A model generated the notes under the pieces. That model did no database searches. It saw nothing but the letters and a program-made list of their open reading frames with translations, and was not told the DNA's origin. 31,746 bases of DNA from IMG/VR virus record IMGVR_UViG_3300042473_001146, positions 1 through 31,746 of that record. One strand, given 5' to 3'. Shown piece after piece: positions 1,683 through 31,213 of this stretch. The DNA comes from a virus. The translations under genes and the position numbers were made by a program. Position 1 is the stretch's first letter; every line of letters starts with the position of its first letter.

Positions 1683-1849
1683 ACGACTATATGAAGTTAC
1701 TAGAAGATGAGTTAAGAAGACTAGTTAAGAATAAGGTTACAGTTAATGTAGTTAATAGTAATTATGTTATTGATGTTAGAGGTAAACAAATAACTGTACC
1801 TCTAACAAATACAACAACCGTAAGAAAAAATAGTATTAAGAGTAAGTAG
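1679..1849 (+). CDS. Small 56-aa hypothetical protein coupled to the tail gene
   Basis: The ATG at 1679 overlaps the TGA of the upstream structural gene (ATGA), a typical translational coupling. The product is 56 aa, begins MNDYMKLLEDELRRLVKN and continues with a short beta-rich stretch (VIDVRGKQITVPL). Its N terminus resembles that of the 297-aa protein at 6685 (LIDEIKRLVNNDV, then a beta stretch), so the two may share a small module. The 3' end overlaps the convergent gene at 1836 by 14 bases. A copy of the dispersed GTAAGAAAA word lies inside it at 1820. Function unknown. Confidence 0.6.
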   Translation: MNDYMKLLEDELRRLVKNKVTVNVVNSNYVIDVRGKQITVPLTNTTTVRKNSIKSK

Positions 1850-2255
1850 CGTCCTCGTATTTAAACCTACTATAATAACGTTCCTTTACTATATGTTTCT
1901 CACTATTTAATACACCATGTAATTTAATATTTCCCTCTTTAATTTGTTGATCTAATGCTAATTTAAGTAAAACTAAATCTATGTTATGTTTAGTAACTAG
2001 TTCATCTAAGGTATAACCTTTAGGTAAACTAGCTTCTTTTAACTGTAATTTAAATAGATCAAGTAATACTGGTTGCACATAATCACTATGGCGTAATAAA
2101 TAGGCGCGATTAATTGATTGTTCTATTTCTAATTTAAGCGTCTCTTCTTTTTTCTTACATTCATAAAGTTCATTTAATTGAGTTAAATAAACTGGTTTAT
2201 TATCAACTAACATTAGTTGAAGTAGTTCATTGATTGCTTTATCTAGGTTATTCAT
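1836..2255 (-). CDS. Hypothetical protein, 139 aa, mostly helical
   Basis: Last gene of a three-gene - strand cassette that interrupts the + strand structural block. Its ATG at 2255 overlaps the TGA of the preceding gene (ATGA). The 139-aa product is Leu/Glu/Lys-rich and looks largely helical, with a probable short coiled coil (LYECKKKEETLKLEIEQSI, about residues 30-48). The region around residues 80-110 (YTLDELVTKHNIDLVLLKLA) resembles a helix-turn-helix shape, but I cannot assign a family. A copy of the dispersed word lies at 2148-2158. Function unknown. Confidence 0.7.
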   Translation of the reverse strand: MNNLDKAINELLQLMLVDNKPVYLTQLNELYECKKKEETLKLEIEQSINRAYLLRHSDYVQPVLLDLFKLQLKEASLPKGYTLDELVTKHNIDLVLLKLALDQQIKEGNIKLHGVLNSEKHIVKERYYSRFKYEDATYS

Positions 2256-2503
2256 AGTGCGTTAAGTATGTCAAGGTAACTAACAAGTTTAATATCAGTA
2301 ATAACATCTGGTAGATCACAGAATCTCACATTTAAATAATCTTCAACTAATCCATAATAAGGTACTGTATTATAACCATTAGCTTTTAAATAAATACCAA
2401 TATTGTGTAGTGTAGCTGTTCTATCAGGTAATCCTTCTAATGGTGGTAATTTACCATTTAAAACATTATTAATAACGTCTCTAACTTGTTGTTTAGTTAT
2501 CAT
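2252..2503 (-). CDS. Small hypothetical protein, 83 aa, with SYLDIL C-terminal tail
   Basis: Middle gene of the - strand trio, overlapping both neighbours by four bases. The product is 83 aa with a helical N terminus (QQVRDVINNVLNG) and ends VSYLDILNAL. The same type of ending occurs in the gene just upstream (LSYLDILDKL) and, more weakly, in the protein at 12616 (VTYESILNAL). The two adjacent genes are nearly equal in length and may be diverged duplicates. No known domain seen. Confidence 0.65.
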   Translation of the reverse strand: MITKQQVRDVINNVLNGKLPPLEGLPDRTATLHNIGIYLKANGYNTVPYYGLVEDYLNVRFCDLPDVITDIKLVSYLDILNAL

Positions 2504-2784: not shown

Positions 2785-5700
2785 ATGACAACAACCTATA
2801 GTTCGGGTAAATTACAACTTACATTTAATTCAGGTAATGTATCTGTAGTTAATGGTTCAGGTAACTTAGGAGTTACAGGAACTTACTATATCTCTATTCA
2901 AGGTCGGAATCTAATTGGACTTAATCTGAATAGTACATTAGTTCCAGTTACTTTAACTACAACATCTACATTAACTATAACATTACCATCATTAGCTAGT
3001 GGTGAAACTTGGTCTGACATAGTTATATCAGCATCAACTACTAATAACGTATCTGCCTTAACTCAAGTAATGGTAGTTAATAGTGCTGATTTTAATTCGC
3101 CAGTTATATTAACTAGTGTTGAGTTGTTCAAGCTAACTACACTTGCTCGTACTGTAGCTAACTCTGCTGCATTACCAGCAACACCAATTCAGGGACTTAT
3201 AAGATACATAACTAACCTCAACTACTACTATGAATACGATGAATACAGTACAGCAACTGTAGATAACTTAACTGTATTAACTGCAACTACTGGTAGATGG
3301 CTTAGAGTAGGTGCAATTAGTACGTATATAACTGATACTACAGCTACAGATGGATGTGATCAAGATGTTCGCACACCTAATCTAATTGTTAATGCACCAT
3401 CATATACTTGTGATGGTAGTAAAGGTGATGGAGTTACCTTCTGGTTACGTAATGAATTTAGCACTATTATTTCAAGTGGAACTAGAATTAGTTGTACTGT
3501 GCGATTATTTGAGGAAGATAAATCTCAATTGTTCGATAGTCTCCTAATACTAGAACTACTTGGTTATGTTAATTTAATAACTGGAGTATTAGATGCTTCA
3601 GTTAGTAGTGGTGAAGTAACTTATCAACCTCGTAGTCAATGGTTAACATTACCAGAGGATCTCGACATTGGTTATGCTGCTGTAGTTAGAGTTAGTCCTA
3701 AATTCACCATTACTGATTTAGATAACAATGTTCCATATCTAGCTAACTTAACTACATACGTTACATTTGCTCCAACTAGCGGTATCTATACTCCTGGTGT
3801 ATTCGGCAACTTAATTTACAACGAATATGATAAGTGGCGCATTTATTCTGATGTTGGACTTAGTGTAATTAAGAGTAAGGGTAGTGGAATAGTTAATAAT
3901 TATGAACTTAATGATATATCCGCCGAAACTATAACAGGGTTAAGTTCTAATACCGCCAACCAGTATATTTTTCTTACTAGTAATGGTACTTCGTTCGCAT
4001 CAACTACTAGTTCATTCGTTAGTGCAGTTAAGCGATGTGTAGTTAGTACAGTTAATGGTATAGGAACTCCAGTTAGTTATGGTAGCTTCGCGTTAAATAA
4101 CACTAAGAAGTTATCTGTAACTGTTAATTATCCAACTAGTGTTAGAAGTAATTATCCTGATGCTCTTATTGCAGGTTCTAGTAAAGGTAAGTTTAATGCA
4201 ACTAATGTTGTTATCTATATTAAGAATAGTAGTAATGCCGTATTCGTAACTGAAGTTAACATAACTCCATCTGCTAGTAATGATGTTTATGTACTTAATT
4301 ATAGTGACTTTACTAGTTCTACATTAGCAACACCATCTAGTAATTATGGTTTATATACACCATTAAGTGTAACTACTTCAACTCCATCTAACAGTAGTAC
4401 ATTTCCTACTGGTAGTTATGAAGTGTTTGTTGCATTTAAATACACTGGAGTTGTTACAGTTATTGATCATAGTGTTAGTGAGTTATATGAGATAACAAGT
4501 AACCTGAGTGAGTTATTCTCAACTAGTGCAACAGTATGGTATAGCGATAATGGTGTTCCTAGTAGTTTAATTGGTGAAGATGGTTCATATTATCTTAATT
4601 ATGATAATGCTAATATTTATAAGAAGGTTAATGATACTTGGAGTTTAGATGGAAATATTAGTGTTATTTCACCTTCATTTACTACTATTGCAGTTAGTGG
4701 ACAAAGTAATGTAGTTGCAGATCAAACTAATGATAGTTTAACTCTAGTTGCAGGAACTGGTATTACATTAACTACTAATGCCACAACCGATGCTATTACT
4801 ATTACTGGAACTAGCGTCACTAATACATTTAGTACAATAACTGTAGCTGGACAATCTGATATAGTTGCTGATAGTGCTAGTGATACATTAACTATTGCTG
4901 CTGGTAGTGGTATTACCTTAACTACAAATTCTGCAACTGATACATTAACTATCACAGGAACTGCTGTTAGTAATACCTTTACTACAATTGCAGTTAGTGG
5001 TCAATCTGATGTAGTAGCTGATAGTGCTAGTGATACTATTACGTTAGTTGCTGGAACTGGAATGACTATTACAACTAACACCACTACAGATACTATTACT
5101 TTTGAAAGTAGTGGTGTTAATGTTGATGTTACGCGAACTTCTACAATGTCTAATAGTATTGGAACTGGTAGTAAGACGTTTACTTATACTGCTAGTTCTA
5201 ACTTAGGATGGTTAGTTAGTACGAGATTGCGTGCTGCGTATGATGTTTCTAACTATATGGAAGGTGTAGTTACTGCTGTTAGTAGTACCTCAGTTACTAT
5301 TACATCAGATAATGCAGTTGGTAGTGGAACTTATACTAGTTGGAACATAACAATAGCTGGAGATAAAGGTTCTACTGGAAGTGCTGGTAGTTTAAATGCC
5401 GCATCTGGATTTATATTAACTCCTGTTGGAAGTCCCATTACTACATCAACTAACGAAGTTGGTTTCTATGTCGATAGCACTGATAACTTATTTAAAACTA
5501 GAGACGTTAATAATGGTACAGTTAGAACATTAGCATCATTAAATAGAGTTCAAGCATTTACTCAAACACAATATGCTACACCTGTTATTAATAATTCTGC
5601 TACTGGGACAGTAACTTTAGACGGTAGTGCTAGTAATGTTTTCATACTAACTCTAACTGGAAACCTGACTCTGACCATGAACAACATTCAAGTTGGAGCA

Positions 5701-5886
5701 ACTTATATCATCTACTTAATTCAAGATGCAACTGGTAGTAGAACTATTACACTTGATGCTATATTTAAACGATTAACTGGTGATACAACTACAGTTAATA
5801 CAACAGCTAATAAAGTTAATATGTTAACTGGAGTAGCTAGATCATCTAGTGCAATTACATTAGCTCCTATATCAGTTGAGGTTTAA
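2785..5886 (+). CDS. Tail fibre or large structural protein, 1033 aa
   Basis: A 1033-aa protein very rich in Thr, Ser, Asn and Val with almost continuous predicted beta structure, typical of phage fibre or fibre-tip proteins. Residues about 633-775 contain three tandem repeats of 50 residues built on the pattern TIAVSGQSxVVAD, then LTLVAGTGITLTTN, then TDTITITGT. A short Gly-rich stretch (AGDKGSTGSAG) follows near residue 865. The C terminus (LDGSASNVFILTLTGNLTLTMNN, split here by description as hydrophobic strands about residues 950-975) resembles fibre tip domains. Its 3' end carries GAGGT, which serves as ribosome-binding site for the LamG gene. It would act outside the virion in host contact; this is inferred from composition, repeats and neighbours. 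Confidence 0.85.
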   Translation: MTTTYSSGKLQLTFNSGNVSVVNGSGNLGVTGTYYISIQGRNLIGLNLNSTLVPVTLTTTSTLTITLPSLASGETWSDIVISASTTNNVSALTQVMVVNSADFNSPVILTSVELFKLTTLARTVANSAALPATPIQGLIRYITNLNYYYEYDEYSTATVDNLTVLTATTGRWLRVGAISTYITDTTATDGCDQDVRTPNLIVNAPSYTCDGSKGDGVTFWLRNEFSTIISSGTRISCTVRLFEEDKSQLFDSLLILELLGYVNLITGVLDASVSSGEVTYQPRSQWLTLPEDLDIGYAAVVRVSPKFTITDLDNNVPYLANLTTYVTFAPTSGIYTPGVFGNLIYNEYDKWRIYSDVGLSVIKSKGSGIVNNYELNDISAETITGLSSNTANQYIFLTSNGTSFASTTSSFVSAVKRCVVSTVNGIGTPVSYGSFALNNTKKLSVTVNYPTSVRSNYPDALIAGSSKGKFNATNVVIYIKNSSNAVFVTEVNITPSASNDVYVLNYSDFTSSTLATPSSNYGLYTPLSVTTSTPSNSSTFPTGSYEVFVAFKYTGVVTVIDHSVSELYEITSNLSELFSTSATVWYSDNGVPSSLIGEDGSYYLNYDNANIYKKVNDTWSLDGNISVISPSFTTIAVSGQSNVVADQTNDSLTLVAGTGITLTTNATTDAITITGTSVTNTFSTITVAGQSDIVADSASDTLTIAAGSGITLTTNSATDTLTITGTAVSNTFTTIAVSGQSDVVADSASDTITLVAGTGMTITTNTTTDTITFESSGVNVDVTRTSTMSNSIGTGSKTFTYTASSNLGWLVSTRLRAAYDVSNYMEGVVTAVSSTSVTITSDNAVGSGTYTSWNITIAGDKGSTGSAGSLNAASGFILTPVGSPITTSTNEVGFYVDSTDNLFKTRDVNNGTVRTLASLNRVQAFTQTQYATPVINNSATGTVTLDGSASNVFILTLTGNLTLTMNNIQVGATYIIYLIQDATGSRTITLDAIFKRLTGDTTTVNTTANKVNMLTGVARSSSAITLAPISVEV
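4681..5103 (+). repeat. Three tandem 150-bp coding repeats in the fibre
   Basis: Units begin at 4681, 4831 and 4981, exactly 150 bases (50 codons) apart; the third is shorter. Each encodes TI(A/T)V(S/A)GQS(N/D)(V/I)VAD, followed by a GTG(I/M)T(L/I)TTN strand and a TDxITI ending. The DNA copies are diverged but clearly related. Such beta repeats usually form the shaft of a trimeric fibre. Confidence 0.85.
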
Positions 5887-5888
5887 TC

Positions 5889-6647
5889 ATGTTTACTTTT
5901 CCAGTTGGTTTTTTTAATCCTATTGTTAGTGGTGGTGTAGATCCTTTTGCCGCAAACGTAGCTCTATTTCTGAAAGGCAATGGCACTAATAATACGAATA
6001 TTGTTGATAATTCTAGTTTTAATCATTCAATCATGAACCAAAACGGAGTAATCAACACAATTAACCCTAAAAAGTATGGTCTTGGTAGTTTGTTTTTTTC
6101 GGGTGCTAACCACCTTATTCTAGGTTCTGATTTTGTGTCTAATTTTGAACCCTTTGCAGGGAGCAAAAAAACTATAGATTCTTTGATCAGAATAACAGAA
6201 CCAGCGATAGGTTGGGTATCAGGCATAATCGGGAATTATAAAGCTGTAGCGGTTAATGGTCGCTGGCGAATGGGTTATACTACTTCATCTCTATTAATAG
6301 AAAATCCCACGATATCCCTACACTTCACTTGGACTACAAGCACAGGTACTGAGAATGTAGTAGTTTTTACTCAACCTTATGTAAATGATTTCAATCATTT
6401 AGCCGCTTGCATAGATTCTACAATACCTCAAGCAACTATTATCTATCTTTGCATTAATGGAGTAGTTCAAGCCTTTAACAATAATAACTTTGCAAGTCAA
6501 ACAACTTTATACAATGCCCATACTATTGGCGGAGGCATGGATTACACAACTGCCATAAAAGCTCATGTAAATGTTTTGAGGCTTACAAAAAACGTCAGGT
6601 ACACAGCCAACTTTAATGTTGAAACTGACACTTACTTGAATGTTTAA
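5889..6647 (+). CDS. LamG/concanavalin-like adhesin, probable receptor-binding protein
   Basis: The 252-aa product shows the layout of phage-associated LamG-type jelly-roll domains: ANVALFLKGNGTNNTNIVD (start of the domain), a Gly-Ser-Leu-x-Phe strand (LGSLFFSGANHL, about residues 66-77), central strands with FNHLAACID (about 170-178), and a final HVNVLRLTKNVRYTANF strand. Such domains bind carbohydrates or cell surfaces. The start is supported by GAGGT in the end of the fibre gene. Codon use differs from the neighbours: fewer AGT/GTT/ACT codons and more varied third bases, which suggests recent replacement. It is followed by a 12-codon remnant-like reading frame. Confidence 0.75.
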   Translation: MFTFPVGFFNPIVSGGVDPFAANVALFLKGNGTNNTNIVDNSSFNHSIMNQNGVINTINPKKYGLGSLFFSGANHLILGSDFVSNFEPFAGSKKTIDSLIRITEPAIGWVSGIIGNYKAVAVNGRWRMGYTTSSLLIENPTISLHFTWTTSTGTENVVVFTQPYVNDFNHLAACIDSTIPQATIIYLCINGVVQAFNNNNFASQTTLYNAHTIGGGMDYTTAIKAHVNVLRLTKNVRYTANFNVETDTYLNV

Positions 6648-6688: not shown

Positions 6689-7578
6689 ACGAACGTAAAT
6701 TAATAGATGAAATTAAACGCTTAGTTAACAATGATGTAATTATTGGTTACTATAATGGAACTACATTTACTGACGATAATGGTAAAACATACGCTTCCAG
6801 CTATTTAGTAACTAATAATTCTCCTATTGGTAGAGGATTCATAGTTCCATATGAAGGTAAATGGTTAGTTGTAGTAGCTAATAATAATCAAGAGGTAAGA
6901 AAAAATATAATAACTAGTAGAAGGAAGATAAGTATTGAAGATAAACCTAAACCTACTATTGATTATTTACTAACTGAAACATTAATTAAATATGCTGGGA
7001 CTATCATACCAGTAAATAACACATTTTATACAATTAGAGATAACAAATGGAAAAAGTATGAATTACCAGAAATAAGAGGATACTTAAATTATTATATTGA
7101 TAGTAACTATGTTGTTATAAAAGGTGATGAAAAGGATGAGAGATTTAATCAATTAATCGTTTTAAAAGATGACGTATTTACAACCTATACATATCCAGAA
7201 GAACTTCCTGTATTAAAAACATGGCGCAAAGATTTTTTTAATACTTATGATAAGTATAAGGACTTTTATAATTATGGTGATCCTAGTAGTGGTATTAATA
7301 AGATATTTACAGGGCGACAAAATAGATTATATAGATTATCCGGTATAAATGGAGATTTTTTTTATGGATCTTCACGTTTAGATGACATTATTGAAGCATT
7401 AAGTTTAGAACAATCTATTAATCTAAATATTGTTTCATGTCGTTTTACTGAGGATGAAATTATTAGTTGTAGGAAAGAACCATTTAAAGTGAAAAGTCCT
7501 AAATTAGATACTAATATTATCTCTCCTGAAGAAGTAAACAAACAAACTATTATTAGCACTTATATTAAATTTCAATGA
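6685..7578 (+). CDS. Hypothetical protein, 297 aa, in the structural block
   Basis: Lies between the adhesin and the portal and overlaps the portal start by four bases (ATGA). The protein begins MNERKLIDEIKRLVNND, similar to the N terminus of the 56-aa protein at 1679, and then has repeated Tyr/Asn-rich beta segments (about residues 95-190) that could form a small propeller or repeat fold (TIRDNKWKKYEL, NYVVIKGDEKDER, VLKDDVFTTYTY). A copy of the dispersed word lies at 6895-6905. I do not recognise a family; a virion or tail-associated role is inferred from position. Confidence 0.7.
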   Translation: MNERKLIDEIKRLVNNDVIIGYYNGTTFTDDNGKTYASSYLVTNNSPIGRGFIVPYEGKWLVVVANNNQEVRKNIITSRRKISIEDKPKPTIDYLLTETLIKYAGTIIPVNNTFYTIRDNKWKKYELPEIRGYLNYYIDSNYVVIKGDEKDERFNQLIVLKDDVFTTYTYPEELPVLKTWRKDFFNTYDKYKDFYNYGDPSSGINKIFTGRQNRLYRLSGINGDFFYGSSRLDDIIEALSLEQSINLNIVSCRFTEDEIISCRKEPFKVKSPKLDTNIISPEEVNKQTIISTYIKFQ

Positions 7579-9122: not shown

Positions 9123-9926
9123 TTATAAAATACCAAGAGCTACTAGTTCATTGTATAACACTTCTATATTACATTGATAATAAGTATAGTGAGAACCACT
9201 TCCACCATAATAGTCATCTTCATGAATTTCACCCATTGAGCAGCTAATCGCATATAACTTCTTATAGGTAAGAAAACTAATGGTCGGATCTATGCTAGTA
9301 ATGAGATTATCAAATTGCTCAAAATTAGCTAATGGTTCATCGCCATCGTAGTATGTAATTTCATCATTCCAACAGTTACCACTACTACCACCAGTAGACC
9401 AACTATCTGATTTGAGATATGGTTGATTGATAGTACAACCTAAATTATATTTATCAGAGAATACTAACCAATCTGGTTTAACTGCAACTTTATGTAACTT
9501 CATAGTAGTATTCTCAAATAACAATTTAAGTTCATCTAAGTTAGGTACATCTAGAGTTAATGTCTTAATGCTAAACGCACTAGAGATATCACGTCTATTA
9601 ATATCGTTAATTAAACATTGAACTCGATTCTCTTCCCAGTAATGTAACTCTATTTCAGTTAACTCTTTATTCTTAACTACTTCATTAATAACTAGAGTTA
9701 ACTGTTCATTAGTGTGAATTAAACCATCAATGATAAATGTATTAGTACCCCATTTACCAAATTGTACAGATAAATAAGCTAACCAATTTACAGCTTCTTT
9801 CTTATAACGTTTAAGTAGATCATCAAAATCAATATGTCTAATAAGTTTATTATTAGATGATTCTAGTTCCTTCGCAAATGTAGTTTTCCCACTACTCGGC
9901 AATCCCATCAATATTAATACTTTCAT
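9123..9926 (-). CDS. P-loop kinase-like protein with Gly/Trp-rich C-terminal domain
   Basis: The 267-aa protein starts MKVLILMGLPSSGKTTFAKE, a clear Walker A (GLPSSGKTT, residues 8-16) of the nucleotide or polynucleotide kinase type, with IDFDDLLKRY following as in small AAA_33-like kinases. From about residue 155 a separate domain carries SWSTGGSSGNCWND (residues about 175-188), a Gly/Cys/Trp motif I associate with uncharacterised phage proteins, and a Tyr-rich tail. The N terminus overlaps the end of the resolvase gene by 35 bases. Substrate is unknown: polynucleotide end repair beside a resolvase is possible but inferred. Confidence 0.7.
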   Translation of the reverse strand: MKVLILMGLPSSGKTTFAKELESSNNKLIRHIDFDDLLKRYKKEAVNWLAYLSVQFGKWGTNTFIIDGLIHTNEQLTLVINEVVKNKELTEIELHYWEENRVQCLINDINRRDISSAFSIKTLTLDVPNLDELKLLFENTTMKLHKVAVKPDWLVFSDKYNLGCTINQPYLKSDSWSTGGSSGNCWNDEITYYDGDEPLANFEQFDNLITSIDPTISFLTYKKLYAISCSMGEIHEDDYYGGSGSHYTYYQCNIEVLYNELVALGIL

Positions 9927-11336: not shown

Positions 11337-12257
11337 TCAATTCCTTTGTCTAGTTATCCACTGTAATATTGTATTAATTTTAGTATCAGGTTCTACAGCT
11401 TTAATTAAATCAGCAATATCTTTATTTGATAAACTTACATTTTCATCATAAATCTGTTTTCTTACCTCTGATTTATTTTTATATTCATTAGGATCTACTT
11501 GCCATTCAATACTTCCATTTTCTAATTTAAAGATGTAATTTGTTTCATCTATTTGTTCAATGTTATTTTTAATTTGATATAAGCGTTTAATTTTCTTATT
11601 AGGAGATGGTTGATCTAATGCCCAAATAATTTCAGGATATTGAACTATACCACTAAAACCGCGTACCGATCTAGTAGTGTATTTATTATCCTTAATTTCA
11701 CTCTTGTTAACTAATTGAGTAAATACAACTGCAATATTATATTTAAGAGCGATAGTAGCAAACCATTGTAGACAAGGTAGAACTTGACACGTATTTTCAT
11801 CAACAATATTAAATCCAGATAACGAATCAACTATTAATAGTTCAATGTTTTCTGATTCAATAATCTTTTCAATTAATTCAATATCATCACTAACGTTATA
11901 TGTAACTATCTCTAGTGGATTTTTAGGTGTAATGTAGTTGTTTCTACTACCACCTAATAAATCAATACGTTTAACGAATGATTTAATACGACCTTCTGTA
12001 TCAATAATTAATACTCTACCTGTATCTTTAATTTCATAATCTTCTCTAGGTAAAAATGGTATATTACTAGTTATTGATAAACTAGCACCAACTAGACACC
12101 AACTTTTACCAATACCACCTTCAGCAACTACAGCACTAACACGACCTTTAGGAAATAAACCTCCTATATATTCAACTTCTACATTTTCAACTTCAAGATT
12201 CATAACAGTGTGTCGTAAACTTGGAATATATAGACTTTCAACAAATACATCATTCAT
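11337..12257 (-). CDS. RecA-fold ATPase, RepA/AAA_25-like
   Basis: The 306-aa protein has Walker A AEGGIGKS (residues 45-52), a first strand RVLIIDTEGR (81-90), Walker B ELLIVDSLSGF (139-149, Asp144) and a later strand IAVVFTQLVNKSE, plus VRGFSG near residue 220 in the position of a sensor motif. This is the layout of RepA-like hexameric helicases and related RecA-fold ATPases. The C terminus (residues about 270-306) could be a small winged-helix. A second, larger ATPase of the same superfamily is at 28642, so this one is probably not the main helicase; it could act in recombination or initiation. Three ATGTTGTA elements stand just upstream. Its TGA lies only a few bases before the DHFR start. 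Confidence 0.8.
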   Translation of the reverse strand: MNDVFVESLYIPSLRHTVMNLEVENVEVEYIGGLFPKGRVSAVVAEGGIGKSWCLVGASLSITSNIPFLPREDYEIKDTGRVLIIDTEGRIKSFVKRIDLLGGSRNNYITPKNPLEIVTYNVSDDIELIEKIIESENIELLIVDSLSGFNIVDENTCQVLPCLQWFATIALKYNIAVVFTQLVNKSEIKDNKYTTRSVRGFSGIVQYPEIIWALDQPSPNKKIKRLYQIKNNIEQIDETNYIFKLENGSIEWQVDPNEYKNKSEVRKQIYDENVSLSNKDIADLIKAVEPDTKINTILQWITRQRN

Positions 12258-12354: not shown

Positions 12355-12507
12355 TTAAGATTCATAATTCATAATAATACAGGTAAGTAAGAAAAAAGGT
12401 AGGGCGATTTCAACACTTGTATAATCTGATGCTAAGTATCTATCCGCCACTCCAAACATGAATCCGCCAGTTAGTAATGTGAAACTAATCCATCTCAGTT
12501 GTTTCAT
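12355..12507 (-). CDS. Small membrane protein, 50 aa, two membrane segments
   Basis: ATG at 12507 opens a 50-aa frame, MKQLRWISFTLLTGGFMFG at the start and EIALPFFLLTCIIMNYES at the end, with two hydrophobic stretches separated by a charged loop (VADRYLASDYTSVE). The positive N terminus would face the cytoplasm. A dispersed word copy lies inside it (12387-12397). The ribosome-binding site is weak. It could be a holin-like or inner-membrane accessory protein; size and topology alone do not decide. Confidence 0.5.
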   Translation of the reverse strand: MKQLRWISFTLLTGGFMFGVADRYLASDYTSVEIALPFFLLTCIIMNYES

Positions 12508-19356: not shown

Positions 19357-19572
19357 ATCAATTAATGTAGGTATATTAAGTTCGCGCATTTCAAATACAC
19401 TAGTTTTTCTTACCTGTTTATCTTTATCAAATAACCATTCAACACGAACAAACTCTTTATCTGCTATTAATACATCTGCTTCTACAACATTGTATTTTTC
19501 ATAGCGAGTAATCTGTTCAGCGTTCAATTCAATTTGATATAGTTTACCTTCGTATTCAAATGTTAAGTTCAT
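19342..19572 (-). CDS. Small hypothetical beta-rich protein, 76 aa
   Basis: Start chosen at the ATG at 19572 because GGAG stands about seven bases upstream; the TTG four codons earlier is part of that site. Product: NLTFEYEGKLYQIELNAEQI, then strands VVEADVLIADKEFVRVEWLF, then a basic stretch with the dispersed word (VRKTS). Looks like a small beta-barrel. It is the last gene of the run that contains the reductase and adenosyltransferase. Function unknown. Confidence 0.6.
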   Translation of the reverse strand: MNLTFEYEGKLYQIELNAEQITRYEKYNVVEADVLIADKEFVRVEWLFDKDKQVRKTSVFEMRELNIPTLIDKKEV

Positions 19573-22694: not shown

Positions 22695-23477
22695 TTAATT
22701 CCATCCAAATATGTATTCAATAGCTAACTTAATTAATGGTATGTGTTTAGCAGTATACAATGAATTACCATTAAGTTTAAATAGTGGTTGTTGTTGTGAT
22801 AGATTAAGCCACGCTGATACGAGTTGTCCCGCTCTTATACGTTGACCTTTATCTAAGTTAATTGCATGATCAAGTAAGTAATCCTTCAATATAAATGATT
22901 CTGTAGTTTCCTCAATTAACTGAAACTCTTGTAATGCTTTATCTAAACCAGGATATAGATTTAATACTTCCTGTAGCGCATTATGTTGATTATTTAATTG
23001 AGTTATTTGTTCATCTTTAACTACATTACTTTCAATTAGATATTTAACTTGATCAGAATAATCAGTTTTAATTTGAGTTACTGATTTAGTTAATTCAGCT
23101 ATTGCAGATAATAACACATCTTTAGTATCTGAAACATAATACCCTTGTTTTCTTACACTAGGAAGAATCACCTCAGCTACATAATTTGTAAATGCTTCAG
23201 CTTCAGGTTTATTACTACGGAATGCAATTTTATAAACACCAGGTTCATTTATTAACCAAGTGTTATTAGGTATTTGTACTAGGCCAGGAGTTTCCTGAGA
23301 TGATACATCATCATACTGAGCCTTCCATACGTCACTAATTTTATCTAATGATTGAGAACCTGTCCATGCAATATCTAATGCCTTGAACACATCAGCAGCT
23401 ACAAACCAGGGATTGCTATCAATCTCAACTACTCTAACTCGATTATCTTGAAAATTAAACAACTGTAATTCTGACAT
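22695..23477 (-). CDS. BRO-N domain protein, antirepressor-like
   Basis: Residues about 5-110 form a BRO-N domain: VRVVEIDSNPWFVAADVFKAL, DVSSQETPG, TWLINEPGVYKIAFRSNKPE and FTNYVAEVILPSVRKQGYY are the hallmark segments of baculovirus BRO and phage antirepressor proteins, which bind DNA. A helical linker (about 118-180) and a separate C-terminal part (DHAINLDKGQRIRAGQLVSA, then YTAKHIPLIKLAIEYI) follow. AGAGA stands upstream of the ATG. Likely a regulator of phage gene expression; its target is unknown. A copy of the dispersed word lies at 23148-23156 and another just upstream at 23496. Confidence 0.85.
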   Translation of the reverse strand: MSELQLFNFQDNRVRVVEIDSNPWFVAADVFKALDIAWTGSQSLDKISDVWKAQYDDVSSQETPGLVQIPNNTWLINEPGVYKIAFRSNKPEAEAFTNYVAEVILPSVRKQGYYVSDTKDVLLSAIAELTKSVTQIKTDYSDQVKYLIESNVVKDEQITQLNNQHNALQEVLNLYPGLDKALQEFQLIEETTESFILKDYLLDHAINLDKGQRIRAGQLVSAWLNLSQQQPLFKLNGNSLYTAKHIPLIKLAIEYIFGWN

Positions 23478-23551
23478 AAATAAAATCTCTGTAAGGTAAG
23501 AAAAAAAGGATTTAGTATTTAAATTATTATTGATTTCATGTATAAAACATA

Positions 23552-24548: not shown

Positions 24549-25130
24549 CTACATTACTGATTTAATTGCAGCTACAATATAAGCTACATCATTATCAGCA
24601 TAGCGATATCTTTTATCATAAACCTTATTACCTTTAATGGGTGATCTACCTTTGCTGACGCGATACACAGTTGCAGTACGTCTTGTAACTTGATTAACTT
24701 GTAATTGAGTTAGCGCGAACCCATTATCACGAATATAGTCTTGTGCAGTTACTGGATCATGAGTTATGTTAGCATCAGTTATTTCAGTGATTCCAGGATG
24801 CTCATAGCTTGCGCCATCATAACTAGTTAAAGGTAATTCACGTTTAACTCTAAATGATTCTACAATTAATGTATTAACTTCATTCTTATTCTGACGTTTA
24901 GTTAACCCAGTTAATAGTACAGCTTGTTGTTTATTGAATAAATAGTAGATGTTACCACCCTTACCTGTACTCTGTTTAGCTATAGTTACTTTACTTAATT
25001 CACCATAGAACTCAAACTTAGTTAAGTTAACTCTAACTAACTTACGAACATGATCATGAGTAATATTAAGTGTGTTAGCTAGAACACGACTATCTACAGT
25101 TAGAATACCATTGTTATTAACTAGTTGCAT
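24549..25130 (-). CDS. Rha-family phage regulatory protein
   Basis: Residues about 8-100 fit the Rha domain: LTVDSRVLANTLNITHDHVR (V-D-S-R followed by the H-D-H helix), KFEFYGELSKVTI and GGNIYYLFNKQQAVLLTGL. The C-terminal part has basic residues and KGRSPIKGNKVYDKRYRYAD. Rha proteins block host or phage lytic functions in several phages and bind DNA through a helix-turn-helix. AAGGAA before the ATG supports the start. Its C-terminal end (DVAYIVAAIKSV) has a degraded echo 72 bases upstream of its start at 25202-25279, which suggests a former tandem copy. Confidence 0.75.
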   Translation of the reverse strand: MQLVNNNGILTVDSRVLANTLNITHDHVRKLVRVNLTKFEFYGELSKVTIAKQSTGKGGNIYYLFNKQQAVLLTGLTKRQNKNEVNTLIVESFRVKRELPLTSYDGASYEHPGITEITDANITHDPVTAQDYIRDNGFALTQLQVNQVTRRTATVYRVSKGRSPIKGNKVYDKRYRYADNDVAYIVAAIKSVM

Positions 25131-25201
25131 AACTCTAAATTCCTTGATGTTAGTTGATGTGATGTTAAGTTAGTTTAGTAACATAACTTAGGTTAAGTTA
25201 A

Positions 25202-25279
25202 TTAATCTTGAACTAATCTAATTGCGGCAATAATACTAGATATAAAAGCCTGATCATGATAACTCAAGCTGTATACCAT
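25202..25279 (-). pseudogene. 25-aa fragment echoing the end of the Rha-like protein
   Basis: MVYSLSYHDQAFISSIIAAI and five more residues resemble the end of the Rha-like protein (RYADNDVAYIVAAIKSVM); the DNA also matches (TCTAATTGCGGCAATAATAC against TTTAATTGCAGCTACAATAT). The rest of the gap 25131-25296 shows nothing else apart from a dispersed word at 25286-25295. Probably the tail of a deleted paralogue; it could still be translated. Confidence 0.45.
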
Positions 25280-25296
25280 AGATTATTTTTCTTACC

Positions 25297-26733
25297 TTAT
25301 ACGTTATCGTCATTAATTACTACTTCATCTTCATCATCTATCAAGCTATCTAAATCTTCAGCAGCTTGTCCAGTAACTGTACTAAATACAGTTCCATCTG
25401 GTTCAACAATGTTAATCGTAATATCCATATCGTTAATTAATCCTATTTTAGTTATTTCACGTATTGTTCGATTGATGTAGTGATCATAATTAATGTTGTG
25501 GTCATCAGCATCATAATAATCATTGAACAATGTTACTACATTACCACTAGCATATACAACTTCTTTCTCACCTTGATACTCGATTGTCTCATATACAGCA
25601 GGTATATTAACTCTATCGGATACCTTAGTTGTGAAGTTCTTCATACGACCACTAGCGGGATTAATGCGTCGTTCTGTCTCATATACAGCAGGAATTATGA
25701 TGCGTTCACTAACTAATCTCTTCTCCCTCTTAGTACCTATAGTGACCTTCTTGAGTATGATATCGCGTCCAGTAGGATTACTCACAAAGAATCTGAGTGT
25801 CTTCTGTAACTCAGTTCGTTCAGTTACTAATCCATCTTCAATTAGATAGGAGTAATTAGTAAACTGACTACCTACTTTCTGACTAATACAGAAGTCATAT
25901 ATGTCCTTGTGACCTCGAATAAAGTCATTTGGATGTATTCCTTCTAAATAATATTTCTGCAAGGCTAGAGCTACAATTGGAGCATCAAAGCCCTTAAGAA
26001 TACCGTTAATTGGAAGATACTTACCATTACTGCTAGGTAAATCGTAAGAAAAAAGAGGTTCAAGTGTTGCTCCCTGTGGAACGAAACTACCCTTAATCTT
26101 AACTGTACCGTCAGTTTTACGCGCTAAATAATTATTGACATCTCGGCGTACATATAAATCATACTCAGCATATTCAAAAGTAAACTTAGTTTCAGTTTCC
26201 CATTCCTCAATAATTGACTTAACTGAATCTACTTCTAACTTATGGATGTACAACAATATACCATCTGTATTAACAGATATGATATTGTGGTTAGCTAAAT
26301 GTAACCGTTCTATTATCTGTAATAGAAATAGTTGATTGTTAACAGTTGTTTTGTAAGTACATAACAAATCACTTAAAAGGAAATTAGCGTATCCAAACAA
26401 ACCAAAACACGAATTGAGCGATATCTTGAGTCCGTACTCTAATGCAGCATATATTACACTTTCTTTCTTACGTTTCTTATATGCCTTACGATCATTAAGT
26501 GCATCAAGTAATGTCTCAATAAATAATTCTAAATCTAAGTGTTCTGGTGCAATACCGTAGTTAATAATAGCTGATGGGTAAAATGAGACGATATCCGCAT
26601 CTAATAATACGTAGTCGTTTTCAGCTTTGAATATCCCTGGTTTATCAACACTATGTAAACCTCCAAGCCCAAGTTGGATTGTTAAATCACCTATTGTTAC
26701 GGGTGGTAATTTAAGATCAAAGTTTTTACTCAT
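25297..26733 (-). CDS. Family B DNA polymerase, polymerase domain (split gene, C-terminal part)
   Basis: This 478-aa protein holds the polymerase half: DADIVSFYPSAI (45-56, motif A, catalytic Asp47), KISLNSCFGLFGY (103-115, motif B, K-x3-NSxYG) and VNTDGILLYI (154-163, motif C, Asp157; the first Asp of DTDS is Asn155). The start GLGGLHSVDKPG (22-33) matches a segment that precedes motif A in phage enzymes. There is no exonuclease domain; that is in the separate gene just upstream, whose TGA overlaps this ATG (ATGA). Together they would be about 742 aa. The C-terminal part from about residue 320 should be the thumb, ending in a very acidic tail (DEDEVVINDD). It replicates the phage genome. Confidence 0.9.
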   Translation of the reverse strand: MSKNFDLKLPPVTIGDLTIQLGLGGLHSVDKPGIFKAENDYVLLDADIVSFYPSAIINYGIAPEHLDLELFIETLLDALNDRKAYKKRKKESVIYAALEYGLKISLNSCFGLFGYANFLLSDLLCTYKTTVNNQLFLLQIIERLHLANHNIISVNTDGILLYIHKLEVDSVKSIIEEWETETKFTFEYAEYDLYVRRDVNNYLARKTDGTVKIKGSFVPQGATLEPLFSYDLPSSNGKYLPINGILKGFDAPIVALALQKYYLEGIHPNDFIRGHKDIYDFCISQKVGSQFTNYSYLIEDGLVTERTELQKTLRFFVSNPTGRDIILKKVTIGTKREKRLVSERIIIPAVYETERRINPASGRMKNFTTKVSDRVNIPAVYETIEYQGEKEVVYASGNVVTLFNDYYDADDHNINYDHYINRTIREITKIGLINDMDITINIVEPDGTVFSTVTGQAAEDLDSLIDDEDEVVINDDNV

Positions 26734-27524
26734 GTTAGCTTTATCTCTTTTAATTGAGTTAGATATTCCTGAAGTTGCGGTGTCTTAAATGTAATAGCTG
26801 GATTAATTACATCCTTGAAATCAATAGTCTTTCTAACTGTCCTACCATACTTAATCTTCTTAACATCAATATTAGGATTCTTAGCTTTAACTTTATCAAC
26901 ATATAACTTACGGAATAATTCCTTACCTATTCCAGAATCACTTAAACTATTTAGATTAAGCTTATAACTCTCACTTAATAACTCACGCATCTCTAGTCGA
27001 GGTTTAAGATACTCAAGTACCTTATAAGTTATATCAAGATCATTCTTGTTGTAATCAATAAGTAAGTTAAGTTGATCTGGTCTAACTTCATCTAGATAAT
27101 GTATGGGTAAATCTTGTATTCTATGATGTTTAAGATTAACTCCACACATCTTGAGCGACGTGGTGTTAAATCCAGCACGTAGAACTTCTAATACATCGTA
27201 AGAAACAAAGGGGAGGTCATACCTATATGGATTGCGGTCGCCATTAATTAGAGTTTGTGCAAATTCCCACAATTCTAACTTACTGATATTAGGATGACGT
27301 AAAAGATGCACTAATACAGCATCGTCAAAGTTCCATCCATTGAAGCTAATTAATATAGAATTAGTTGCAATGAAGTTAGCTAAATCGCGCCTATCATCAG
27401 TATCGTCATACCATAGATAAGTCTTATATTCACTAGTTGCAAGTGAATAAGTAGTTAAGCAAAATAGGTTCTTGTATATCTCAATATCATATACATAACC
27501 ATTGTCATATAATTTCTCTAACAT
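26730..27524 (-). CDS. 3'-5' exonuclease domain of family B DNA polymerase (split gene, N-terminal part)
   Basis: The 264-aa protein shows the three proofreading motifs: VYDIEIYKNL (Exo I, Asp13 and Glu15), ISFNGWNFDDAVL (Exo II, N62-x3-F66-D67) and IDYNKNDLDITY (Exo III, Y158-x3-D162). About 100 residues follow, then the gene stops in ATGA with the polymerase gene. In standard family B enzymes this stretch leads straight to motif A, so one protein is encoded by two genes here, probably assembled as two subunits. GGGA nine bases upstream is a modest ribosome-binding site. It would edit mistakes made by the polymerase. Confidence 0.88.
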   Translation of the reverse strand: MLEKLYDNGYVYDIEIYKNLFCLTTYSLATSEYKTYLWYDDTDDRRDLANFIATNSILISFNGWNFDDAVLVHLLRHPNISKLELWEFAQTLINGDRNPYRYDLPFVSYDVLEVLRAGFNTTSLKMCGVNLKHHRIQDLPIHYLDEVRPDQLNLLIDYNKNDLDITYKVLEYLKPRLEMRELLSESYKLNLNSLSDSGIGKELFRKLYVDKVKAKNPNIDVKKIKYGRTVRKTIDFKDVINPAITFKTPQLQEYLTQLKEIKLT

Positions 27525-27526
27525 AC

Positions 27527-27627: not shown

Positions 27628-27954
27628 TTATGAAGGTTCTACCAACCATATATTATCTACAACTATTGGTGTTTTTAAATGAATGGGAATGTCATCTTCG
27701 TCGTCCCATTCATAGTTAATTAAAGTAATATTGATATTATCATTCTCAATTACTATGTCATAATATCCATCTAAATCATCATTAATTGAACACGTTAACT
27801 TACTATCAATAATGCTGCAACAATTAAGTTTGATAAAACTATCATCATCTAACTGTAGTTTAAATAAATCACAGTGTAATTCAACTCTATTGATTGATGT
27901 AAGAAAAATAAGTAACTTATCAACTACTTCTTTTAATTGTTTAATTATAGACAT
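27628..27954 (-). CDS. Acidic hypothetical protein, 108 aa
   Basis: I choose ATG at 27954 (MSIIKQLKEVVDKLL), with GGAAA upstream; the TTG at 27966 would add four residues. Product: a helical start, then beta strands with many Asp (VELHCDLFKLQLDDDSFIKL, YYDIVIENDNINITLINYEW). The last pattern is similar to IIDMVLEGDEVLVTLIDYKG in the protein at 31408, so they may be distant relatives. The gene overlaps the 52-aa gene at 27945 by ten bases. A dispersed word copy is at 27899. Function unknown. Confidence 0.6.
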   Translation of the reverse strand: MSIIKQLKEVVDKLLIFLTSINRVELHCDLFKLQLDDDSFIKLNCCSIIDSKLTCSINDDLDGYYDIVIENDNINITLINYEWDDEDDIPIHLKTPIVVDNIWLVEPS

Positions 27955-28166: not shown

Positions 28167-28685
28167 CTACATCTCTTTTTTCTTACACAATATAGGTTTT
28201 TCAATTAATTGTGTTTCGTAAATTAAGCTACTATCAATAATCTCAAGTCGTTTACCATTAACAGTAGCATTAATATCATATAACTTTAATACTGCATTAC
28301 CATCACTAACACGTCCATTGAGTTTAATAGTTTGATAATTTCTACCATACTGTAATCTAACAATTAGATAGTTATGATTGAGATTCTCAAATATTACCCT
28401 ACCAATAATGTTAACTACATCTAGTTCTACATTAGGTTGATCAATAACTCTACCAATTATAGTGAATGATAGATATGGAGTTTGTGTATCACTCTGATTA
28501 TAGATAGCTACATTATTAGTATTAGGTACTAAAATTAGTTCATTGCTTTCAGCCAAGTCTAGTTCATCATTATCTACTAGATATTGTACTTCTTGACTCA
28601 GTGTACATGGATAAGTGCTACCAAATGCAGTTAGTGTACCGTTACAATAAGTCGCTGTCGTGATTACTCGTGCTTTCTGTTTCAT
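28167..28685 (-). CDS. Hypothetical beta-rich protein, 172 aa, beside the helicase
   Basis: Start at 28685 lies inside the end of the helicase gene (44-base overlap), so it is translated from the same message. The N terminus has ATYCNGTLTAFGSTYPCTLS, and the middle repeats IIGRVIDQPNVELDVVN and IIGRVIFENLNHNYLIVRLQ, consistent with strands of an OB-like barrel. It ends CKKKEM. An ssDNA-binding role would fit its place between helicase and polymerase genes, but this is a guess from position and beta pattern only. Confidence 0.65.
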   Translation of the reverse strand: MKQKARVITTATYCNGTLTAFGSTYPCTLSQEVQYLVDNDELDLAESNELILVPNTNNVAIYNQSDTQTPYLSFTIIGRVIDQPNVELDVVNIIGRVIFENLNHNYLIVRLQYGRNYQTIKLNGRVSDGNAVLKLYDINATVNGKRLEIIDSSLIYETQLIEKPILCKKKEM

Positions 28686-30429
28686 ATAGATTCAAGTGTT
28701 CCGGTTTAAATGTTCTATCGGGCATATTGTCTAGTGTAATCATGTGATAACTATTCTCCCTATCTACTTTTCTAAATTCAATGTTGATTACTTTATTTAT
28801 AATAGCAGGTTCTTCTATAACTTGTACAGTATCTCCTACTTTAAATTCACATGGGTTTAGTAATAACACAAGTTTATTACGTTCATCATTAGTTAACTTA
28901 GCTTGAACGTCTTTACGCTCGGTAATAGTAAGTGATTTAACCAGTTCTTTAACTGCATCAACTCCATCATCAATAGCTGCAACTAACTTAACTTTAATTA
29001 CTTCTAACTCACTTTGATATAACGCTGCTACACGTTCTTTCTCTTCAGCTTTATATTTCTTATCTGCCTCAGCTTCTAGATATACAGTCATCCATGATTC
29101 TCCACTACTATCAATAGCATATATAAATGCTCTGTTATTACCGACATAACGTATGATACCTTCAGTAGATGTCATATCGTTGAGTCGCTTAACTACATCA
29201 TTACGAGATGCGGCAGTTAGTTCGACTATATCATTAAGTGTTAACCCATAGACTTTAACCTCAGTATCCTCTACATCAACTTCATCACGCCATTGTTCCC
29301 ATCGTTCAAATAATAATCGCAGTATTTGATTCTGTAATTCAATATTCTCAATTGATAATACTGATTCCTTAAGTACCTTAAAGTACCAATAGTTAGCTTC
29401 ATCTTTCTCGAATAATAAACTTAACTTAATAGGTTCACCATCACGAGGTATGGTGTGAACATTAACAGTACCATCATCAGCAGCAAACATACTCCATACA
29501 CCATCATTAGCGCGAGTTAAGGCACTAGATCCTGCCACACCATTCATCATACCAGTACGATTATTAGCGTTAGCCATCTTAGTATTATGGTGCAGTAGAA
29601 GAATACTGAATCCATGTTCCTGAGCTAATGATTGTAACTTATAGAGCGCACTTGGTACTTCAGGACTATATTCTGTATAACCTGATACCTTGAGACTAGC
29701 CGCTAATGTATCAATAATAATAAGATTGATATTCTTCTCTTTAACTATATCTAGTATCTTAGTTTGATCTAATACAATATCTACATTACGAGTTACTATT
29801 AACTTCTCACTATTAATGAGTTCCTTATATAACTCAGGTTCTTCTAACTCAAGTAACTGTAAACCGTGATCATAGATACGATTTATAGTAGTACCATCAA
29901 TAGGTTCTTCGTTCTCAATAAATAGAACATTGCCCGCAGTAGATTCTCTATTGAGAAATGGTGTACCTCTAGCTACAGCAACCGCCGCATGAGTAGCTAA
30001 ATTAGTTTTCCCTACCTTTGGACTAGCAACTACCATTATGAGTTGACCAAATTTAAGTAGTCCCTTAAATATCCATTGAGTAGCTTTATCTTTACGTAAG
30101 TTAAGTAACTCAGCTAACGTATAGAGTTTGATCTCTTGTTGCTCTACGCTATATACTTGAATTAACTGTTCAATGTCTTTCTTATCTGTTACAAACTTAG
30201 ACATCCATTCAGTTAATTGAGCTTTAATTCTCTTCTGTTTAAGTAATGATTCACAACTTGTCATTACAGCAATACGTTTACGAAATTCACTTTCTAATAG
30301 TGTATTAAAATCAGTTTCTATTTCATCTGGTGTTTTATCATAATCAGAACAATCTCGATGAATTACCTCGTCTCTAAGTTGCGGTGTTAGTTCCAACAAC
30401 ATCTGTAAATAAATGTTGTAATCTTGCAT
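28642..30429 (-). CDS. Replicative helicase-like RecA-fold ATPase with KOW-like C-terminal domain
   Basis: In the 595-aa protein an N-terminal helical region of about 110 residues precedes the ATPase domain: Walker A ASPKVGKT (135-142), first acidic strand NVLFIENEEP (167-176), Walker B INLIIIDTLAAS (234-245, Asp240) and ILLLHHNTKMAN, then GVAGSSALTRANDGVW as in RepA-like helicases. A winged-helix-like part follows (LTLNDIVELTAASRNDVVKR, about 385-404), then a coiled coil and a basic/acidic end with FKVGDTVQVIEEPAIINKVI (about 528-547), a KOW/SH3-like small barrel. It is upstream of the polymerase genes and overlaps the primase by 56 bases. Probably the helicase of the replication fork. Confidence 0.8.
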   Translation of the reverse strand: MQDYNIYLQMLLELTPQLRDEVIHRDCSDYDKTPDEIETDFNTLLESEFRKRIAVMTSCESLLKQKRIKAQLTEWMSKFVTDKKDIEQLIQVYSVEQQEIKLYTLAELLNLRKDKATQWIFKGLLKFGQLIMVVASPKVGKTNLATHAAVAVARGTPFLNRESTAGNVLFIENEEPIDGTTINRIYDHGLQLLELEEPELYKELINSEKLIVTRNVDIVLDQTKILDIVKEKNINLIIIDTLAASLKVSGYTEYSPEVPSALYKLQSLAQEHGFSILLLHHNTKMANANNRTGMMNGVAGSSALTRANDGVWSMFAADDGTVNVHTIPRDGEPIKLSLLFEKDEANYWYFKVLKESVLSIENIELQNQILRLLFERWEQWRDEVDVEDTEVKVYGLTLNDIVELTAASRNDVVKRLNDMTSTEGIIRYVGNNRAFIYAIDSSGESWMTVYLEAEADKKYKAEEKERVAALYQSELEVIKVKLVAAIDDGVDAVKELVKSLTITERKDVQAKLTNDERNKLVLLLNPCEFKVGDTVQVIEEPAIINKVINIEFRKVDRENSYHMITLDNMPDRTFKPEHLNLYETESTSNHDSDLL

Positions 30430-31213
30430 ATAGAAGTTCCTTTATATTATGTGTACCTACCAAATCAGCTATATCACCACCATCATCAGATGTAACATCA
30501 TCAAGAGGTACAAGATAAAATGGTTTACCAAGTGACCATGCTACATATTTAATTAAGTCAGATTTAACTTTACCGATTTTATCATTATCTGGAAGATAAA
30601 TAATTCCAGTTATATGAGGATTACTTAACTGTGCGAATAGATAATTATTACTCCATCCAAATGAAGGGGGTGATAGTGTTAACCATCCAGTAATTGAACT
30701 AACTATATCTGCACATTTCTCACCTTCAGCAATTAAAACACTACCATTAGTTATGTATCTTTGATTAAATAGACTTGTATTCTTACCTCTACCATATATC
30801 CATTGATTACCAACCTTATATTTAGGAAACAATTGCTTAGGTTGCTCATCATCATAGTCAACTCGTTCAACAATAAATTCATCAGAGTAAGAAAAATAAG
30901 TAATGTGACGATTTCCTATTTGATATTGTTTAGCTAACTGATAATGGGGCGGACTAACCATGAGTGCATCAAACTTAGTTATTGTAGGTTGTTTAATAAC
31001 TAATGTTGATGGCGTAATTATGCCACTAGAACTAGATAAACCAAGAGCTGTTCTAATTTGAGCAGTTGAACAATTCTCAGTTACACATAAGTATGCCCAA
31101 TCTAGTTTCTTATACTTTAATTTGCCACCACAACTAGGACACTTATAACATATCTCAGTTGTTAATTCACTTAATATTTCTAACTTACAATCAGCTAGAT
31201 TAAATTTAGGCAT
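30374..31213 (-). CDS. TOPRIM primase-like protein with zinc ribbon
   Basis: The 279-aa protein begins with a zinc ribbon (CPSC at 25-28 and CVTENC at 43-48). A TOPRIM domain follows: VLIAEGEKCADIV (159-171, Glu163), IIYLPDNDKIGK (204-215, the D-x-D pair Asp209 and Asp211) and GGDIADLVG. This is the layout of phage DnaG-like and PriCT primases, which make RNA primers. It lacks the large RNA polymerase domain of DnaG N terminus, so it is short. The 3' end overlaps the helicase gene by 56 bases, so primase and helicase are co-translated. Confidence 0.82.
   Translation of the reverse strand: MPKFNLADCKLEILSELTTEICYKCPSCGGKLKYKKLDWAYLCVTENCSTAQIRTALGLSSSSGIITPSTLVIKQPTITKFDALMVSPPHYQLAKQYQIGNRHITYFSYSDEFIVERVDYDDEQPKQLFPKYKVGNQWIYGRGKNTSLFNQRYITNGSVLIAEGEKCADIVSSITGWLTLSPPSFGWSNNYLFAQLSNPHITGIIYLPDNDKIGKVKSDLIKYVAWSLGKPFYLVPLDDVTSDDGGDIADLVGTHNIKELLYARLQHLFTDVVGTNTAT

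Follow-up and report, generated by a model that had tools for sequence, protein, structure and literature searches.

A nine-base word dispersed over both strands of a group of large phages, and the case for start sites of a phage primase

In phage T7, Okazaki fragments are about 1-6 kb long, with a mean of about 3 kb and none below 1 kb, and priming also depends on template bases 3' of the recognized pentanucleotide, which the zinc domain of the primase may read (PMC12839067). DnaG primers are about 10 nucleotides (nt) long, and recognition includes a template base that is left uncopied (PMC6163395). What makes a primase choose a small number of start sites from the many available is an open question (PMC12839067). 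The subject of this analysis is a phage fragment of 31,746 bases, the whole of IMG/VR record IMGVR_UViG_3300042473_001146 (the window), across which the nine-base word GTAAGAAAA is dispersed. This word and its analogs in related phages are considered here as candidate primase start sites.

Twenty-five exact copies of GTAAGAAAA were found in the window, 11 on the + strand and 14 on the - strand. Markov models of orders 1 to 6, based on the composition of the window itself, gave expected numbers of 0.72, 0.37, 0.36, 0.66, 2.74, and 10.64, the orders at the high end already containing most of the word itself. The word had the top score among window 9-mers with at least five copies at orders 2 and 3, and the same word read backwards had zero copies. 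The original prediction of a dispersed word enriched on both strands was confirmed, and the enrichment was stronger than first reported: the prediction had held that an order-3 model yielding 20 or more copies would speak against it, and that model yields 0.36. Its count of 23 copies (10 and 13 by strand) was slightly low, and the copy-free gap that it placed between 6905 and 11457 is interrupted by a + strand copy at 9268-9276.

The other + strand copies are at 1820-1828, 6895-6903, 12387-12395, 14986-14994, 18076-18084, 22350-22358, 23496-23504 (intergenic), 26044-26052, 27899-27907, and 30887-30895 (within the primase-like gene described below). Those on the - strand are at 2150-2158, 2774-2782 (intergenic), 3969-3977, 11457-11465, 14043-14051, 15477-15485, 15901-15909, 17729-17737, 19405-19413, 21138-21146, 22230-22238, 23148-23156, 25287-25295 (directly past the stop of the polymerase gene), and 28178-28186. 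A three-A variant of uncertain function, GTAAGAAAC, has exact matches at 21756-21764 and 27198-27206, both on the + strand.

A related IMG/VR contig of 111,623 bases (G003), which matches the window at 98-99.8% identity over four blocks that add up to about 30 kb, was used as a fuller genome. It contained 87 copies of GTAAGAAAA (42 and 45 by strand) where 1.31 were expected, a 66-fold enrichment at about one copy per 1.3 kb, and thus the enrichment is present in the rest of the genome as well. Twenty-three contigs of the group, the window among them, held 484 copies in 618,710 bases; these contigs are largely overlapping homologues. Contig G002 was read over 60,000 of its 60,104 bases. All 19 of the further contigs reached through TerL carried the word at a roughly equal scale. 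Other viruses with this word were looked for by pair-pattern scans of viral contigs, and the idea was rejected: a first scan returned 10 stretches, nine of them on word-dense contigs and the tenth on L057, where 45.7 kb contain 2 copies, and a second returned 29, five of which could be aligned to the group while the remaining 24 contain 2-5 copies. A search of the literature for the word gave no match, among those listed, that concerns a phage genome by title.

The word is strict. Words one base off GTAAGAAAA occur in G003 at or near expectation, the biggest excess being that of GTAAGAAAC (9 vs 1.6 expected). In a few comparisons GTAAGAAAC, which occupies nine places in G003, swaps with GTAAGAAAAC through a one-base indel. 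In the flanks of GTAAGAAAA, T is scarce just 5', and H, W, R, and R tend to follow 3': the first base is never G, the second is mostly A or T, and mainly purines come next. The footprint has an abrupt 5' edge, 11 positions that are held, and a 3' tail that fades, and the conserved signal extends past nine bases.

Codon-matched shuffling, named in the original prediction as another possible source of the copies, was carried out on G003 rather than on the window itself. In 300 shuffles of synonymous codons the genes contained a mean of 9.3 and at most 19 copies, compared with 73 observed, and the enrichment stands. It was found in every open coding phase, with 9, 7, and 14 antisense copies (null means 0.5, 0.5, and 1.4) and 15 and 28 sense copies (null means 2.3 and 4.2); the remaining sense phase, phase 2, is empty because a TAA stop lies inside the word. 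The codon shuffles and the enrichment of all open phases rule out a protein-level cause in the group to which the window belongs.

Comparison of G003 with relatives at 75-95% identity showed that 30 of the 31 distinct sites were intact in every comparison, while random 9-mers survived at a rate of 59% (P = 2e-6, binomial); this figure and the corresponding one for instances (42 of 43) take no account of linkage. The core of GTAAGAAAA was changed in 1 of 387 comparisons, vs a background of 10.2%. Two positions just 3' were held as well, and the upstream flanks changed at or above the background rate. By context, 15 of 16 sense, 18 of 18 antisense, and 9 of 9 intergenic instances were conserved. 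Because sense, antisense, and intergenic copies are equally retained, selection acts at the DNA level. The earlier suggestion that selection acts on DNA or RNA and not on protein therefore holds for DNA and for the exclusion of protein; an RNA or transcript signal was rejected, and a role at the transcript level is disfavored, because antisense copies are equally conserved. A repeat family or mobile element was also rejected, as outside the motif there is little signal in the base composition of the flanks. Segments without homology to G003 (27 kb, duplicates removed) contained 19 sites, one per 1.4 kb, and therefore new modules bear the word too.

The sites are also regularly arranged. When all G003 sites were pooled, they were more even than chance (coefficient of variation 0.69 vs 0.98, P = 0.0002), and their orientations alternated above chance (60 runs vs 44.5, P = 0.001). 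A single rule accounts for both the evenness and the alternation: copies on the same strand repel one another below 1-1.5 kb, and the two strands are independent. There were 12 same-strand pairs closer than 1 kb where 33.1 were expected, with none of 5000 simulations as low, and 34 opposite-strand pairs where 33.6 were expected. Spacing per strand had means of 2.6 and 2.5 kb and maxima of 5.6 and 7.4 kb. Since the repulsion concerns the same strand only, the signal is read per strand.

This arrangement bears on two other explanations. A site-specific nickase could use such words as targets and leave localized interruptions in single strands, of the kind found in phages T5, phiKMV, and tf, and the strict, asymmetric, strand-specific nine-base form resembles that of tf, which has 14 nicks in TACTRTGMC (PMC3517423). 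Nickase targets are nonetheless improbable here, since opposite-strand pairs sit close together (31 bp apart at 87541/87572 in G003), risking breaks, and since the 42 and 45 copies of G003 are not confined to one strand. Somewhat less improbable, though still unlikely, is a binding site for another shared DNA-binding protein, whether a BstA-like, KilA-N, condensing, or packaging protein. BstA-like proteins are present in all five of the large word-bearing relatives examined, and the words are asymmetric and dispersed, as are the stoperators of mycobacteriophages (PMC9283540). The orientation of stoperators tracks transcription (PMC9283540), whereas that of GTAAGAAAA in G003 does not (44 sense, 31 antisense, and 12 intergenic copies), and a roadblock or condensing protein would not be expected to give repulsion on the same strand only. 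G003 encodes three related BstA-like proteins, at 25130-25948, 40470-41324, and 63711-64562, the last corresponding to 18468-19319 of the window. Two of them match phrog_6287, the third was assigned through shared homologues, and the KilA-N protein ORF5 (open reading frame 5) likewise matches phrog_6287.

Related phages carry words of their own. The Pseudanabaena phages PA-SR01, an isolate, and Pam2, whose record names a host, were retrieved as portal relatives before their words were found. Enrichment of GTAAGAAAA was not found in either (2 copies in PA-SR01, 3 in Pam2). They contain 79 and 82 sites, respectively, of RCAGAAAARR, balanced between the strands, with 5 and 3 for the reversed-word control, and in PA-SR01 genes CAGAAAARRR occurred 74 times vs 13.8 after codon shuffling. 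Five terms looked up in PMC10286775 (on PA-SR01) and PMC9837993 (where Pam2 is not mentioned) turned up no such word. The Pam2 record (ON014754) has several implausible eukaryotic or toxin annotation names, which are probably transferred labels.

A profile scan of viral contigs for relatives of ORF94, the primase-like protein of G003, identified at least 56 loci. The best locus among the matches listed is on a 111-kb contig (G051) that contains GTCCGAAA 101 times (52 and 49 by strand); this word extends to about H-GTCCGAAA-Y-A-A-W-W-A-R-R and occurs 71 times in genes vs 3.6 after codon shuffling. Close inverted pairs of GTCCGAAA were seen in G051 (L255-L260), 11 vs 2.7 under 60 bp, and could form hairpins. 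Contig G053, of which 140,000 of 145,466 bases were read, has 78 sites of RCAGAAAARR, and G052 has 67 of CCRTAGAA (29 and 38 by strand, control 8), extending to about A-CCRTAGAA-R-R-R-A-A-R. Nine further loci form a set with 64-94% identity in their aligned stretches. Eight of them carry CCCGAACA on both strands, and the remaining one carries it on a single strand. The analogous words across related large phages include RCAGAAAARR (PA-SR01, Pam2), GTCCGAAAYAAWWARR, and ACCRTAGAARRRAAR.

The words differ by lineage, each phage group having its own, and follow a common pattern of a lineage-specific 5' part, then GAA and a tail rich in A and purines. Written as the primer-like strand and divided by a slash, they are GTAA/GAAAAHWRR, RCA/GAAAARR, GTCC/GAAAYAAWWARR, ACCRTA/GAARRRAAR, and AACCC/GAACAA. 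The right part, 6-12 nt long, is in all five GAA followed by a run that is rich in A and consists mostly of purines, and the left part varies by lineage.

That the phage merely mirrors a host word, such as an uptake sequence or a genome word like HIP1, is very improbable. Uptake sequences do reach a density comparable to one per 1.3 kb, which that of GTAAGAAAA resembles, and Aphanizomenon phage CL131 carries the HIP1 of cyanobacteria. No cellular genome that dense was found, however, in a pair scan of 84,980 species or in nine cyanobacterial plasmids, each related phage has its own different word, and CL131, which shares a fiber segment with the window and has similar palindrome avoidance, contains a single GTAAGAAAA when counted whole. 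In a k-mer scan of 90 kb of CL131, HIP1 (GCGATCGC) had a count of 318 vs 6.0 expected, each place being counted once per strand.

A dispersed-word score was higher in 34 loci with ORF94 relatives than in 36 control loci from which GTAAGAAAA-type words had been screened out (Mann-Whitney P = 9e-5). Scores of at least 7, a threshold picked after the scores were seen, were found in 9 of the 34 and in 2 of the 36 (Fisher P = 0.018). The loci used were those of at least 8 kb: 34 of the at least 56 ORF94 loci, 19 of the 24 non-group viral loci, and 17 of the 18 polymerase loci. Two AT-rich viral loci contain CTTCTCCA, possibly another dispersed word, with 13 copies in L180 (z 7.6) and 12 in L183 (z 7.0).

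Same-strand repulsion was seen in other word-bearing genomes, with 10 same-strand pairs under 1 kb vs 22.1 expected in PA-SR01 (P = 0.0045) and 3 pairs under 500 bp vs 22.6 expected in G051, where it is strong. Per-strand spacing on the scale of Okazaki fragments was thus found in three (G003, PA-SR01, and G051) of the five word-bearing genomes that were adequately tested.

The proposed reader of the sites is a protein of 279 amino acids with a zinc ribbon and a TOPRIM domain, encoded at 30374-31213 on the - strand of the window and recognized as primase-like from conserved residues and an AlphaFold model. Its gene is overlapped by that of an AAA_25/DnaB_C-like helicase (28642-30429, - strand), which matches Pfam AAA_25 at 3.1e-25, DnaB_C at 5.2e-6, slightly below the cut-off, and PHROG primase/helicase families. 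The G003 counterparts are ORF94 (277 amino acids) and ORF93. In the zinc ribbon of ORF94, three homologues share C25-P-x-C28 and C43 without variation, while a fourth ligand is less clear, and in the TOPRIM domain EGEKCA and DND are invariant across nine aligned sequences. Homologues match Pfam Toprim_2 above the cut-off in L228, at the cut-off in L216, and below it in PA-SR01 and Pam2. The Pfam scan of ORF94 itself gave no primase or Toprim match, so its membership rests on fold, residues, and homologues. Relatives are found in proteins that also have AAA_25; in L234 the additional part is a CHC2 zinc finger, and in L215 it is a primase zinc ribbon. In both members of the nine-locus set that were scanned, the protein containing the ORF94-like part has AAA_25 as well, and that of L228 also has Toprim_2.

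The AlphaFold model of ORF94 reached a predicted local distance difference test score (pLDDT) of 73.9 from nine sequences and 37.5 from ORF94 alone, with low confidence at the zinc ribbon (about 50-67). When the model was compared with the PDB using Foldseek, ranks 1-16 were all primases or T7 replisome (E 3e-5 to 1.4e-2, six of them at 0.001 or below; probability 0.99-1.00; TMq 0.36-0.45). The best matches were T7 primase (E 3e-5), T7 gp4 or replisome, Aquifex primase, and DnaG domains. ORF94 is thus a putative primase of the DnaG/T7-gp4 type.

G003 has in common with PA-SR01 and Pam2 TerL, capsid, portal, tape measure, RuvC, the BstA-like family, ORF93, and ORF94; no DNA polymerase homologue was found between them at E 1e-4. 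Among 50,697 phage records, homologues of ORF94 at E ≤ 0.01 were confined to two, Pam2 and PA-SR01; because both phages resemble G003 in much of their genomes, this result alone does not single out ORF94. DNA polymerase was rejected as the reader: 18 loci with relatives of the polymerase, all short (6-21 kb), were without a strong word except for HIP1 in L024. A recombinase was rejected as well, as two crAss-like phages with Sak4 relatives, 50 kb each, had nothing above z 6.9.

A Chi-like signal, read one way by a host or phage helicase-nuclease that would then switch from degradation to recombination, is about as unlikely as a site for another DNA-binding protein. Chi too is a short directional word that some phages enrich (PMC3784561), even spacing per strand fits such a signal, and the exonuclease, Sak4-like annealase, and RuvC encoded by G003 are compatible with it. 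The enrichment of Chi in phages is about 2-3 fold in medians (PMC3784561), vs 66-fold in G003, and word-bearing phages differ in recombinase, PA-SR01 having ERF instead of Sak4. Nine cyanobacterial plasmids (2.05 Mb) held 33 copies of GTAAGAAAA and 35 of the reversed word, and a scan for close inverted pairs in 84,980 species, which a sparse word would escape, gave 46 stretches with at most 3 copies. Nor are module breakpoints located at the word. Use of the word as a recombination linker was rejected because 2 of 87 breakpoint clusters lay within 10 bp of a site, where chance predicts 1.96.

The preferred reading, with a probability of about 0.6, is that the dispersed words are preferred start sites of each phage's own primase. 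Among the roles first proposed, a phage primase site is the best supported, and packaging, Chi-like, and modification sites fit less well. Primase sites are preferred over Chi, nick, and repressor sites because the layout of the word fits primer copying and the same-strand intervals match the lengths of T7 Okazaki fragments. The template strand would be the reverse complement, 5'-YYWD-TTTTC-TTAC-3', in which the primase would read TTAC, the lineage-specific end, as an uncopied recognition element. The adjoining pyrimidine-rich stretch would be the template for an RNA primer about 10 nt long and rich in A and G, probably pppGAAAA-H-W-R-R; the start at G is suggested by the comparison of words, and a start one base earlier is possible in some lineages. 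Forks would traverse every region in both directions, so sites would be needed on both strands at intervals of a few kb, comparable to the length of Okazaki fragments. The ORF94-type protein would read them, the window's primase-helicase pair being the products of 30374-31213 and 28642-30429.

Several observations weigh against this reading. Known primase signals are 3-5 nt long and far looser than words of 9-16 nt, and such strict words exceed what known primases need. Conservation copy by copy is not predicted by the analogy either, because T7 has far more sites than needed. Between PA-SR01 and Pam2 only 51 of 66 sites were retained at 86% identity; random 10-mers were 44% identical, which is not a matched null because RCAGAAAARR permits R. 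Same-strand repulsion in Pam2 was not significant (19 pairs vs 23.0 under 1 kb, P = 0.23; 26 vs 34.3 under 1.5 kb, P = 0.07), and none was seen in G053 (24 vs 21.1 under 1 kb), in G052 with its few sites (2 vs 3.2), or in the 27 kb of non-homologous segments, where there was no power (4 vs 5.2). The shorter core CCGAACA in six loci of the nine-locus set had 47 sense and 24 antisense copies, so a protein-level share is possible there. In the score comparison, 25 of the 34 loci with ORF94 relatives were below 7, with nothing strong, and independence is overstated because six of the nine positives are one related contig set. ORF94 is not the sole candidate reader, because G003, G051, G052, G053, PA-SR01, and Pam2 all share TerL, ORF16, ORF20, capsid, the BstA-like family, ORF36, and RuvC in addition to ORF94. 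The fold matches have modest TM-scores (0.36-0.45), the best with a root-mean-square deviation of 16 Å.

A broader generalization is offered tentatively, at slightly under even odds: large phages whose small primase has a zinc ribbon and a TOPRIM domain may, as a whole class, bear a private priming code of 9-16 nt on both strands at Okazaki intervals. Its copied tail would be constant, GAA and A-rich purines, and its upstream letters would change with the zinc ribbon, start sites and specificity could be read from sequence, and the code may block the priming of foreign DNA. If primase start sites are indeed what the words mark, then strict, even, individually conserved sites, differing words, and a matching primase make site choice testable, and the primase specificity of uncultured viruses would be readable by sequence alone.

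The window also encodes a Mu-type portal, a class II ribonucleotide reductase, and a Bro-N protein in addition to its DnaB/AAA_25-type helicase, and G003 encodes thymidylate synthase, DHFR, and a split DNA polymerase beside the RuvC, exonuclease, and Sak4-like annealase mentioned above. The end of the tail-fiber gene (about 5488-5937 of the window, 450 bases) has 90% DNA identity to CL131, which points to a recent exchange between otherwise unlike phages. In IMGVR_UViG_3300044609_001448 (L051, 9016-11036), a different phage of about 40% GC is joined to a window-type phage at the common fiber gene, either a real recombinant or an assembly chimera. The palindromes ACATGT, ATGCAT, CAGCTG, CTGCAG, GAATTC, GACGTC, GCTAGC, GGATCC, GGTACC, TCGCGA, TGCGCA, and TTCGAA, as well as GGWCC, are absent from the whole of G003, which suggests many restriction systems in the host. 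In this avoidance the window phage is nearer to CL131 (40 kb examined) than to the Pseudanabaena phages, which retain TCGCGA and AGTACT. Because of the CL131-like fiber stretch and palindrome avoidance, the host is likely a filamentous bloom-forming cyanobacterium.

Among known systems, HIP1 is alike in being a very strongly enriched genome word and differs in being a palindrome, with 0 copies in the window and in G003. The stoperators of cluster A mycobacteriophages are dispersed asymmetric 13-mers, but the more than 20 in L5 are located in promoters and short intergenic spaces and point in the direction of transcription (PMC9283540). The nick sites of tf, phiKMV, and T5 are likewise strict, asymmetric, and dispersed, but lie on one strand only, with 14 in tf (PMC3517423). 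The Chi of lambdoid phages is a short directional word over-represented on the phage genome, but it is a host word, enriched 2-3 fold and clustered between the origin and the packaging site (PMC3784561), whereas the words described here are genome-wide and private to each lineage. The T7 gp4 sites, 5'-(G/T)2GTC-3', are similar in being directional, with recognition partly uncopied, in being served by a zinc-ribbon/TOPRIM primase that adjoins a helicase or is fused to one, and in being used at intervals of about 1-6 kb (PMC12839067). They differ in number, with 177 pentanucleotide sites where about 12 would do (PMC12839067). In the window's phage group, by contrast, primase-like protein and helicase are separate genes, and the word is a strict one of 9-16 nt, enriched 66-fold, evenly spaced on each strand, and conserved at each copy.

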